Part shown: piece by piece, positions 33,574-36,368 of the stretch
How positions within the stretch are numbered: position 1 is the stretch's first letter
Layout of the letters: every line of letters starts with the position of its first letter
Assembly: GCF_011758805.1 (NCBI RefSeq)
Contig: NZ_JAANOW010000005.1
Coordinates: forward strand, 124,001-188,000
Direction: 5' to 3'
DNA from: Mycolicibacterium fluoranthenivorans
Lineage (GTDB): Bacteria > Actinomycetota > Actinomycetes > Mycobacteriales > Mycobacteriaceae
DNA: 64,000 nt
Program-made: the position numbers and the translations under genes
The notes under the pieces: model-generated
What the model was told of the DNA's origin: nothing
Database searches by the model: none
What the model saw: the letters and a program-made list of their open reading frames with translations, nothing else

Positions 33574-35871
33574 TCAGAGCTTGCTCACCGGCGCGTGGTT
33601 GTGCATCAGCTTGACCCGGCCGGCGCTACCGAAGTCGATGAGCGACATGGCCGATTCGCCGACGCCGGACACCTCCTCGACCCGGCCCAGCCCGTACTTG
33701 TCATGGGTCACCCGGTCGCCTGGTTCCAGGGTGATCACCGTGCGGTTGCGCACCTTGGCCGGCGCCGGGCGTGCGCTGTCGGCGAACCGCCCCACACTGC
33801 GCGGGGCGCTCAGCACTGATGCCGGCGTCTCGACGCGGCGCCAGTTGATGAGGTCTTCGGGGATCTCACGCAGGAACCGGGACTCCGGGTTCAGCATCGG
33901 CTGTCCCCAGGACGACCGCACCTTGGCGCGGCTCAGATACAGCCGTTGCCGGGCCCGGGTGATACCGACATAAGCCAGCCGGCGTTCCTCGGACAGCTCC
34001 GTCGGGTCGCCGAGGGCGCGCATGTGCGGGAACATGCCGTCCTCCCAGCCCGTGACGAAGACCACCGGGAATTCCAGGCCCTTGGCCGTGTGCAGGGTCA
34101 TCATGGTGACCACACCCGAACCCTCTTCGGGGATGCCGTCGGCGTCGGCCACCAGCGACACCCGCTCCAGGAACTGGGCCAGCACCCCGGTGTCGGGAAT
34201 GTCCTCGTCGACTAGGTCCTCTTCCTCGCGCAGCGCATGCGCATTGGCCAGGTCGATGCTGAATTCGTGTGCGACGCTGACCAATTCGTTGAGGTTGTCC
34301 AGCCGCGCGAGATCTTGCGGGTCGTTCGACGATTCGAGTTCGCGGCGGTATCCGGTGCGGTCGAGCACCGCCTCGACCAGATCGCCGAGTTCACCGTCGA
34401 GCCCGGCCCGCAACGAGTCCAGCAGCCCCACGAAGGAGGCGATAGCCTTCTCCGAGCGGGTGTTGAGCATCGGGACCTTGCCCTCGGCGGCCACCTGCAG
34501 CGCGTCGTTGAAGTTGGTGCCGGTGTTCTCCGCGTACACCGCCACACAGGCCTCGGCCCGGTCCCCGATGCCGCGGCGCGGGGTGTTGAGGATGCGCCGC
34601 ATGCTCACCGAGTCGCCGGGGTTGTCCAGCACCCGCAGGTAGGCGACGATATCGCGAATCTCCTTGCGCTCGTAGAACCGCACGCCGCCGACGACCTTGT
34701 ACGGGATGCCGGAGCGGATGAACACCTCCTCCAGCGCACGCGACGAGTTGTTGGTGCGGTAGAAGACCGCCACATCGTTGTAGTTGATCTGGTTCTGGTC
34801 GCCCAGCGCGTCGATCTCGCCCGCCACGAACCGCGCCTCGTCATGCTCGTTGTCGGCGACGAAACCGACGATCAGCTCACCCTCGCCGGAATCGGTCCAC
34901 AGCCGCTTCTCGCGCCGCCCGGCATTGCGGGAGATGACCGCGTTGGCAGCGTTCAGGATGGTCTGGGTGGAGCGGTAATTCTGTTCCAGCAGAATGGTTG
35001 TCGCGTTCGGGTAGTCGCGCTCGAAGTCCTCGATGTTGCGGATGGTGGCGCCGCGGAACGCGTAGATGGACTGGTCGGCGTCACCGACCACACACAGCTC
35101 ACCCGGGGGCACCTGATCGTCAGGATCGTGGCCCACCAACTCACGCACCAACATGTACTGGGCGTGGTTGGTGTCCTGGTACTCGTCGACCAGGATGTGC
35201 CGGAAGCGCCTGCGGTAGTACTGCGCCACCTGTGGGAACGCCTGCAGCACATAGACCGTCTCACCGATGAGGTCATCGAAGTCCAGGGCGTTGGCCGCGC
35301 GCAGGCGCCGCTGGTATTCGCCGAACACCGAGGCCACGGTGCGCGACATGTCATCGGAGGAATCGGTCAGCTCGGCGACCGCGCGCTCCGGGTCGATCAG
35401 CTCGTTCTTCAGATTGGAGATGCCATTGGACAGCACCCGCGGTGAATACCGCTTGGTGTCCAGTCCCATGTCCTTGGCGATCATCATCAGCAGCCGCCGG
35501 GAATCGTCGGCGTCGTAGATGGAGAAGTTCGAGTTCAGCCCGGGCATCAGGGAGGCCTGGTTGCGCAGGATGCGCACACATGTGGAGTGGAACGTCGAGA
35601 CCCACATGTTGCGCGCGCGGGGCCCGACCAGTTGCACCACCCGTTCGCGCATCTCCGCGGCGGCCTTGTTGGTGAAGGTGATGGCCAGGATCTGGCCGAC
35701 GCCGACGTCGCGGGCGGCCAGCAGGTAGGCGACCCGCCGGGTGAGCACCGCCGTCTTACCCGAGCCGGCGCCCGCCACGATGAGCAGCGGCGAACCTTCG
35801 TGCAGCACGGCCTGGCGCTGCTGCGGGTTGAGGCCGTCCAGCAAGTTGTCGGTGTCAGCAGCAAGAGTCAT
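33574..35871 (-). CDS. uvrD1: UvrD/PcrA-type superfamily 1 DNA helicase UvrD1
   Basis: 765 residues from ATG at 35871; a GTG 11 codons upstream is possible but adds no homology. SF1A motifs in order: Q motif LNPQQRQAV, Walker A AGAGSGKT (34-41), FTNKAAAEMRERV, VDEYQDTN (motif II), GDADQSIYAFRGA (III), LEQNYRST (IV), TLHTAKGLEFPVVF (V), VGITRARQRLY (VI). The last 60 residues form the Tudor-like domain GDRVTHDKYGLGRVEEV, which in UvrD/PcrA contacts RNA polymerase and in mycobacteria Ku. It is a 3'-5' helicase for nucleotide excision repair and end processing. Homologue of Rv0949. Confidence 0.96.
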   Translation of the reverse strand: MTLAADTDNLLDGLNPQQRQAVLHEGSPLLIVAGAGSGKTAVLTRRVAYLLAARDVGVGQILAITFTNKAAAEMRERVVQLVGPRARNMWVSTFHSTCVRILRNQASLMPGLNSNFSIYDADDSRRLLMMIAKDMGLDTKRYSPRVLSNGISNLKNELIDPERAVAELTDSSDDMSRTVASVFGEYQRRLRAANALDFDDLIGETVYVLQAFPQVAQYYRRRFRHILVDEYQDTNHAQYMLVRELVGHDPDDQVPPGELCVVGDADQSIYAFRGATIRNIEDFERDYPNATTILLEQNYRSTQTILNAANAVISRNAGRREKRLWTDSGEGELIVGFVADNEHDEARFVAGEIDALGDQNQINYNDVAVFYRTNNSSRALEEVFIRSGIPYKVVGGVRFYERKEIRDIVAYLRVLDNPGDSVSMRRILNTPRRGIGDRAEACVAVYAENTGTNFNDALQVAAEGKVPMLNTRSEKAIASFVGLLDSLRAGLDGELGDLVEAVLDRTGYRRELESSNDPQDLARLDNLNELVSVAHEFSIDLANAHALREEEDLVDEDIPDTGVLAQFLERVSLVADADGIPEEGSGVVTMMTLHTAKGLEFPVVFVTGWEDGMFPHMRALGDPTELSEERRLAYVGITRARQRLYLSRAKVRSSWGQPMLNPESRFLREIPEDLINWRRVETPASVLSAPRSVGRFADSARPAPAKVRNRTVITLEPGDRVTHDKYGLGRVEEVSGVGESAMSLIDFGSAGRVKLMHNHAPVSKL

Positions 35872-35905
35872 ATCGCAGTCAAACCTACAACCGCGGGCAG
35901 ACACT

Positions 35906-35941
35906 TTGCGCTGGCCCGGCCGTTAGTGGCACACTCGATTT
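35906..35941 (+). promoter_or_regulatory. promoter of leader peptide / chorismate mutase
   Basis: TTGCGC (35906-35911) and CACACT (35930-35935), spaced 18 bases, lie so that transcription would begin at the GTG of the leader peptide (35942). The same CACACT-plus-six-bases pattern precedes the ATG at 42885. Both hexamers are weak matches, so this is an inference. Confidence 0.45.
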
Positions 35942-36001
35942 GTGCTCCATCAGCAGCGACGATTTTTTTACGGGTACCGATCCGCGGTGCCCGTGGTCTA
36001 G
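35942..36001 (+). CDS. aromatic-rich leader peptide of chorismate mutase
   Basis: GTG at 35942 opens a 19-codon frame, VLHQQRRFFYGYRSAVPVV, ending in TAG at 35999-36001; an in-frame TAG at 35924 precludes an earlier start. Four of its residues are Phe or Tyr, clustered as FFYGY, the end products of the pathway that the downstream gene serves. Codons TTT TTT TAC give a T-run unusual in this GC-rich genome. No ribosome-binding site precedes it, but a plausible promoter puts +1 at the GTG, so it is likely leaderless. The design matches amino-acid attenuation leaders: stalling at FFY would alter the downstream hairpins. Confidence 0.65.
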   Translation: MLHQQRRFFYGYRSAVPVV

Positions 36002-36044
36002 CTGCTTCCCCAGAGCCCCGCGGTCCGCATCCGGATCCGGGGCT
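35970..36044 (+). promoter_or_regulatory. attenuator-like hairpins between leader peptide and chorismate mutase
   Basis: Hairpin 1:2 pairs ACGGGTACC (35970-35978, within the FFY codons) with GGTGCCCGT (35986-35994). Hairpin 3:4 pairs AGCCCCG (36014-36020) with CGGGGCT (36038-36044) and is followed by CGTCTGTTGTGT, moderately U-rich. CCGCGG occurs in both segment 2 (35982-35987) and segment 3 (36018-36023) and could form the alternative 2:3 pairing. Structures are read by eye, not computed. Confidence 0.5.
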
Positions 36045-36104
36045 CGTCTGTTGTGTGAGGCCCGAAACCGGATGAAACCAAAACCCACCAACAGCGAGGA
36101 ACCC

Positions 36105-36368
36105 ATGACCATCGAAACCAGCGAGCTGCCGAACATCGACGATCTGCGCCTGGAGATCGACCGCCTCGACGCCGAGATCCTGGCCGCCATCGCACGCCGC
36201 AAAGAGGTCTCCCAGACCATCGGCAAGATCCGGATGGCCTCCGGCGGCACCCGCCTGGTGCACAGCCGCGAGATGAAGGTGATCGAGCGCTACAGCGAGC
36301 TGGGTCCCGAGGGCAAGGACCTCGCGATGCTGCTGCTGCGCATGGGCCGCGGCCGGCTCGGCCACTAA
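36105..36368 (+). CDS. AroQ-type secondary chorismate mutase (intracellular, AroG-dependent type)
   Basis: 87 residues from ATG at 36105 with GAGGA nine bases upstream; ATG at 36072 would give 98. One helical AroQ domain: LRLEIDRLDAEILAAIARRKEVSQTIGKIR with the catalytic Arg and Lys positions, RLVHSREMKVIERY, and the C-terminal RMGRGRLGH that in the M. tuberculosis enzyme (Rv0948c) docks on DAHP synthase. It converts chorismate to prephenate, the committed step to Phe and Tyr. Free enzyme of this type is weak and activated in the AroG complex. Its stop overlaps the modA stop on the opposite strand. Confidence 0.93.
   Translation: MTIETSELPNIDDLRLEIDRLDAEILAAIARRKEVSQTIGKIRMASGGTRLVHSREMKVIERYSELGPEGKDLAMLLLRMGRGRLGH

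Follow-up and report, generated by a model that had tools for sequence, protein, structure and literature searches.

In Escherichia coli, pheA encodes a fused chorismate mutase-prephenate dehydratase and stands behind a leader that has a Shine-Dalgarno sequence and 1:2, 2:3 and 3:4 hairpins. Leaders of like design have been reported at trp and aroF in Corynebacterium glutamicum (PMC11802643, which also names the E. coli pheL-pheA attenuator) and at ilvB1 in Mycobacterium tuberculosis (PMC13236596). For example, aroF is preceded by the aroR leader, which contains Phe-Tyr-Phe, is induced by phenylalanine limitation, and acts by transcription attenuation (PMC11802643). In a 2005 survey of amino-acid genes in actinobacteria, no conserved RNA structure was reported at phenylalanine or tyrosine operons (PMC1262725). 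Here we describe a locus in Mycolicibacterium fluoranthenivorans, within a stretch of 64,000 nucleotides (contig NZ_JAANOW010000005.1, positions 124,001 to 188,000; hereafter the window, in whose numbering all coordinates are given). A region of about 200 bases separates a divergent minus-strand frame (33574-35904) from a plus-strand chorismate mutase gene (36105-36368), and this region carries an element on the plus strand that, judging from comparative sequence analysis, very probably senses charged tRNA-Phe and works as a ribosome-mediated transcription attenuator.

The element opens with a short leader frame, VLHQQRRFFYGYRSAVPVV (35942-36001), which starts at a GTG (35942), runs for 19 residues to a TAG (35999-36001), and has an in-frame TAG just upstream (35924-35926); the peptide is the one given in the preliminary description of this DNA. 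The frame was compared across 81 sequences, namely the window and 80 loci, among which M. tuberculosis and M. smegmatis are absent by name. An extended -10 box, TGGCACACT (35927-35935), lies 6 bases before the GTG, and in 77 of the 81 sequences TGGCA[C/G]ACT is followed by a GTG frame, at a distance of 6 bases in 62 and 7 in 15 (the rule permitted distances of 4-8 and tried 6 and 7 first). Farther upstream is a putative -35 region, TTTGCGC (35905-35911); of 76 loci, 74 have TTTGC ahead of this box, 70 of them at an identical spacing of 19. Since the frame of one promoter-rule match, L019, is not an aromatic leader, the count of aromatic leaders before chorismate mutase is 76 of 81 rather than 77, and the frame thus recurs in relatives, where its absence would have counted against it; L009, L018, L019, and L082 have neither a leader nor a match to the RNA model introduced below. 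In other genera, an ATG or GTG stands at a comparable distance from the promoter box, with L163 also allowing 5 bases. Because the -10 box lies only 6 or 7 bases before the GTG or ATG, there is no room for a leader Shine-Dalgarno sequence, and we infer that the frame is leaderless, with transcription starting at the G of its start codon (35942).

Conservation was assessed in three alignments. The first (A1), the mycobacterial set, holds 75 rows; L019 (another frame), L062 (terminator lost), and L078 (a duplicate) were left out, and L125, from another genus (g18), was added. A covariance model (R1) built from these 75 leader sequences gave 34 loci as main hits, of which 27, all outside Mycobacterium, make up the alignment A3; left out were L157, L167, and L180 (Mycobacterium), L165 and L184 (near-duplicates), and L185 and L188 (not at the gene). 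A mixed, wider alignment (A2) has 30 rows. Controls were shuffles that ignore the relatedness of rows, and pair counts outside Mycobacterium lean toward hairpin 1 and the terminator, because the search model contained both of these helices; the 2:3 helix was not part of it.

The codons that would serve as sensors are Phe8 (TTT), Phe9 (TTT), Tyr10 (TAC), and, after Gly11, Tyr12 (TAC), at 35963-35977. Codon 8 encodes Phe in all 75 A1 rows (TTT in 74, TTC in 1), and codon 9 in 68, swinging between TTC (49) and TTT (19). Codon 10 encodes Tyr in 66 rows, and codon 12 in 74. Conservation of FFY-type codons upstream of homologs, which the preliminary description had singled out for alignment, is therefore borne out. 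The same pattern extends to other genera: the promoter rule gave a leader in 31 of the 34 main-hit loci, 3 of them Mycobacterium (L157, L167, and L180), and Phe is retained at the codon 8 or 9 place in all 31 leaders and in that of L160, which carries a different -10 box, often as Trp-Arg-Phe or Arg-Tyr-Phe. The pair CGA-TTT at 35960-35965, which lies outside hairpin 1, is near-invariant (CGA 75/75, TTT 74/75), and both of its codons are rare: across 33 long frames of the window, TTT is used for 5% of Phe residues and CGA for 5.6% of Arg residues. The pair is possibly a tuned slow site.

A variant compatible with the favored mechanism is that the leader senses all aromatics, or mainly Tyr or Trp, instead of Phe. 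The strong retention of Tyr at codons 10 and 12 and the frequent Trp before Arg-Phe in other genera speak for it. However, of the four sensor codons only Phe8 is kept in every A1 row, 9 of the 75 rows have D, S, H, N, or C in place of Tyr10, and Tyr12 sits inside the stem of hairpin 1, so that its conservation is perhaps structural. We consider this variant rather unlikely; Phe is the best-kept sensor, and Tyr sensing is less sure.

The RNA of the region is far more structured than its shuffles. The segment 35942-36104, whose folding had been suggested as a check, folds at -72.6 kcal/mol against a mean of -52.67 for its shuffles (standard deviation 4.31; z -4.62), and none of 200 shuffles matches it. 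Two hairpins placed earlier at 35970-35994 and 36014-36044 were recovered, at most one base off, at 35969-35995 and 36013-36045. Hairpin 1 (1:2) has arms at 35969-35979 and 35985-35995 and overlaps the sensor codons. In A1, 96.7% of its cells are paired and two-sided changes occur at 3 pairs and in 7 cells, against 0.4 and 0.5 in shuffles, the number of pair types not exceeding the controls (reached by 182 of 500). In A2, 97.2% are paired, with two-sided changes at 4 pairs and in 19 cells and a covariation of 0.326 versus 0.167; in A3 there are likewise compensatory changes. The putative terminator hairpin (3:4; 36013-36045) is paired in 95.2% of A1 cells, with two-sided changes at 3 pairs. 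In A2 it is paired in 84.9%, with no excess of two-sided changes, perhaps owing to gap placement. An interrupted, T-rich tail of 12 bases follows (36046-36057), which in 74 loci contains 5.6 T on average (range 1-9), and a run of at least four T occurs in 16 of 75 A1 rows versus 15 of 27 A3 rows, where it comprises 4-6 T. In three mycobacterial loci, L062, L167, and L180, the terminator is mostly gone while the promoter and leader start are kept, the leader of L180 overrunning the usual stop; because the terminator is largely missing, chorismate mutase may be constitutive there.

A third pairing would link the two hairpins. Segment 2 (GGUGCCCGUGG, 35986-35996), shared with hairpin 1, would form the 5' arm of an antiterminator, and segment 3 (CCGCGGUCCGCAUC, 36018-36031), within the 5' arm and loop of the terminator, its 3' arm. 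A competing alternative pairing had been anticipated, with CCGCGG (35982-35987) and CCGCGG (36018-36023) as partners. A competing pairing is conserved, but with another partner: the proposed helix loses one pair in 35 of 75 sequences and is weaker than CCGUGG (35991-35996) with CCGCGG (36018-36023), the best mycobacterial form, in which 98.2% of A1 cells are paired. An outer stem, GCAGC:GCUGC, was set aside, being paired in 79.5% of cells and only modestly above controls. Outside Mycobacterium (A3), the corresponding helix is CGUGG:CCACG, with 92.3% of cells paired; changes on both sides occur in 20 cells, where shuffles give 7.4. A longer form extending into the terminator arm has 88.6% paired and 20 such cells against 7.8. 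One column triplet common to strands 1, 2, and 3 changes in concert, reading A-T-A in 15 of the 27 rows, G-C-G in 9, T-A-A in 2, and G-T-A in 1. On the chorismate mutase tree, at least 4 changes are required for each of two 2:3 pairs and 5 for one hairpin pair, counting one-sided and mismatch states on what is a short gene tree; because several changes are needed, the pattern is not a single event. When arm 1 was masked and the 3' arm of the terminator was not yet made, the expected number of 2:3 pairs was 5 or higher for every one of the 75 A1 and the 27 A3 sequences, with means of 9.0 and 9.2 against 3.7 and 4.0 in shuffles, and 47 of the 75 and 15 of the 27 beat all 20 of their own shuffles.

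Together these parts suggest how the switch would work. Transcription would start at G 35942, and a ribosome would load directly onto the 5' end, with no Shine-Dalgarno sequence to guide it. With Phe-tRNA (and probably Tyr-tRNA) plentiful, the ribosome would reach the stop codon and cover segment 2, the terminator at 36013-36045 would form, and RNA polymerase would leave before chorismate mutase. If charged tRNA-Phe were scarce, the ribosome would wait at codons 8-10, where it masks the first arm of hairpin 1, leaving segment 2 free; segment 2 would then pair with the emerging segment 3, pre-empt the terminator, and allow chorismate mutase to be transcribed. In a leader left untranslated, hairpin 1 would sequester segment 2 and the terminator would form. 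The geometry is consistent with such a scheme. Counted in leader bases, the 5' arm of hairpin 1 lies at 28-38, segment 2 at 45-55, the stop at 58-60, and the terminator from 72 onward; assuming the usual footprint, a ribosome at the stop would cover segment 2 and extend almost to the terminator, and one at codons 8-10 would cover the 5' arm. The aromatic attenuator of the preliminary description thus stands in its leader, its codons, and its conserved 1:2, 2:3, and 3:4 pairings, and is refined in that Phe is the best-kept sensor, Tyr is less sure, and the 2:3 partner is a different one.

The element is widespread in the genus. Of 297 genus genomes, 264 contain an R1 match at E up to 0.001 (247 of the 275 of good quality), three of the listed matches being weak (E above 1e-7). 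The genome of the window has a single copy, and a second was sought without success, the search giving one match only at E up to 1. Within the family, 69 of 221 genomes in 16 of 31 genera are matched at E up to 0.01, the weak matches being a mixed group. Beyond the genus, strong matches, at E 3.5e-11 or better, occur in genera g10, g12, g18, g22, and g24, and those opened sit before chorismate mutase. Among weak matches (below about 40 bits), L181-L184, L186, L187, and L189 lie beside chorismate mutase; L185/L223 and L188/L224 were opened, found not to lie beside it, and rejected as copies of the element. In Mycobacterium sp. SM1 (L059), the RNA element is about 1.4 kb upstream of chorismate mutase, and between the two lies a 410-residue ISL3-family transposase frame (158-1390; PF01610, E 1.1e-66), a natural insertion between attenuator and gene. 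In genera g23 and g25 (L191, L192, and L117), chorismate mutase is preceded by a short frame that looks leaderless and by a hairpin with a T run; the short frame of g25 holds Tyr and Phe (VYRQFPG, VYRRFPG), and that of the g23 locus has no aromatic codons. At the genes for class II 3-deoxy-D-arabino-heptulosonate 7-phosphate (DAHP) synthase and prephenate dehydratase of the same genome, no frame with at least three aromatic residues was found in 420 and 350 bases, respectively. A known Rfam riboswitch or T-box was also considered and rejected, the two matches both being far under gathering scores.

Several observations weigh against the attenuator. The first base of the -10 hexamer, CACACT, deviates from the TANNNT consensus in lacking the first T, and a consensus scan (TTGACA/TATAAT-like boxes; terminators scored as five T in eight bases) scored no promoter of the sigma-70 type at the locus and no terminator on the plus strand. 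The T tract is imperfect, as 45 of 75 A1 rows have no run of more than two T and neither do the g10 and g12 rows, and M. tuberculosis is described as having few intrinsic terminators (PMC12810186). The mycobacterial 2:3 pairing shows no two-sided change at all. In A3, as many pairs with two-sided changes are seen in 55 of 500 shuffles for hairpin 1, in 35 of 500 for the 2:3 helix (which has 3 such pairs), and in 217 of 500 for its longer form. Folded at full length and at equilibrium with arm 1 masked, the RNA prefers the terminator, with 0.19 expected 2:3 pairs in mycobacteria and 2.6 elsewhere; because in Mycobacterium the terminator wins once its 3' arm exists, antitermination would have to be kinetic. 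Finally, R1 has no match in 33 of the 297 genus genomes (4 of the 297 also lack a chorismate mutase match), and the filter found no aromatic leader in 29 of 30 regions from 25 other genera, the remaining one, L197, being doubtful.

Some of these points would be met by a different use of the same leader, in which its translation governs Rho-dependent termination, or the translation of chorismate mutase, with no intrinsic terminator involved. Such control has been described for M. tuberculosis leaders (PMC12810186), and the broken mycobacterial T tract and the blank terminator scan would be in keeping with it. However, the 3:4 hairpin ranks with the best-conserved parts of the element and carries two-sided changes, more than half of the rows from other genera do have a T run, and by their coordinates the hairpins end at 36045, upstream of where ribosomes are likely to bind for the main gene. 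We regard this explanation as improbable.

Nor does the peptide itself seem to be what is read. Were nascent-peptide arrest at work, the ribosome would be stalled in response to an aromatic metabolite by the peptide rather than by its codons, and the motif RFFYGYR.AVPVV is indeed nearly unvarying among Mycobacterium loci. Yet much of this constancy can be imposed by the arms of hairpin 1, and where these arms have changed wholesale the peptide after the F/Y codons differs (FFYRSATAEPVG, RYFTCPGPRCT, RFFSQAPEAGA), while the F/Y codons and the pairing are kept; in the 31 leaders and that of L160, too, the rest of the peptide is variable (e.g., MFSPSSRPLWRFFSQAPEAGA and MFSISVRDNTADPVGPLWRYFTCPGPRCT). 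Because the Phe codon at position 8 is fixed while the peptide that follows varies, codon sensing is favored, and peptide arrest appears very unlikely. Equally hard to credit is a constitutive terminator behind a functional small protein, without regulation. A conserved terminator-like hairpin does follow the frame, but the 2:3 pairing that covaries with a 1:2 residue would have no role there and, because the upstream gene is divergent, only the leader transcript would be there to terminate.

Returning to attenuation by charged tRNA-Phe, it is tempting to speculate further, if tentatively, that a leaderless Phe attenuator of chorismate mutase is lineage-wide, with six or more genera of the family carrying it. 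The switch would then include ribosome loading at a bare 5' end and would read both charged tRNA-Phe and the capacity of the cell for leaderless initiation, with the rare CGA-TTT as a tuned stall site. Mycobacterium and its relatives would each have remade the antiterminator with partners of their own, the role of segment 2 being kept.

The gene behind the leader is, as first described, a chorismate mutase, the enzyme at which carbon is committed to phenylalanine and tyrosine. It stands alone and is of the AroQ type (36105-36368): PF01817 scores above its cut-off, and the best matches among solved structures carry the name RV0948C intracellular chorismate mutase (E 1.3e-38). By this gene, the nearest named relatives of the host, whose genome is 6.41 Mb, are Mycolicibacterium and Mycobacterium. 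An alternative, longer start is offered by an in-frame ATG at 36072 (window 36072-36104). Among 75 loci, an upstream ATG is in frame and open in 57 and out of frame in 10, and in 8 none was found by the pattern used; the protein may begin at the counterpart of this ATG in many species. A GAGG-type Shine-Dalgarno sequence lies nearer to the later start (36105) than to ATG 36072. Elsewhere in the host genome, an open frame of 257 residues contains another chorismate mutase-type domain (L001; G000:C1:330127-330333; PF01817, 44.1 bits). The divergent neighbor at 33574-35904 is presumably helicase-like, from its look.

The preliminary description knew of no aromatic attenuator at this gene, and our literature search likewise turned up no earlier description of one at chorismate mutase, although an entry in supplementary tables of start sites or small proteins, or in subscription papers, is possible. 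In its accessible text, a study of Rv0948c treats the enzyme and lacks the word leader (PMC6437058). Term searches of the accessible texts found neither Rv0948 nor chorismate in PMC13236596, PMC4633059, PMC9094748, PMC10937400, and PMC11133741, no chorismate in PMC1262725, and no Rv0948 in PMC12810186. An attenuator here would add a layer of gene expression to the control of the chorismate branch point. Because the element is present in most genus genomes sampled and covaries, it would also offer a ready system for the coupling of leaderless translation to termination, for which the natural breakages, the lost terminators and the inserted transposase gene, provide comparison material.

Set beside the systems with which we began, the locus resembles pheL-pheA of E. 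coli in its Phe-codon leader, in having chorismate mutase activity as its target, and in its 1:2, 2:3, and 3:4 hairpins. The likeness drawn here is one of design, and a fused enzyme and a Shine-Dalgarno leader there contrast with a stand-alone gene and a leaderless-looking leader here. The mycobacterial ilvB1 leader shares ribosome-mediated transcription attenuation with a terminator hairpin (PMC13236596, PMC1262725), but senses branched-chain amino acids and serves another gene. The mycobacterial cysteine leaders, in turn, are short leaderless frames with end-product codons before a biosynthetic operon (PMC4633059); theirs are Cys codons, and no conserved terminator hairpin is reported for them in the accessible text of PMC1262725. 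The nearest known case is aroR-aroF of C. glutamicum, which joins an aromatic (Phe) leader to transcription attenuation in a related actinobacterium (PMC11802643). There the target is DAHP synthase, whereas here it is chorismate mutase, and the two are likened by description rather than by leader sequence. The element would thus be a device of a known kind, at a gene where the searchable literature does not report one, and the comparative support for it is strong.
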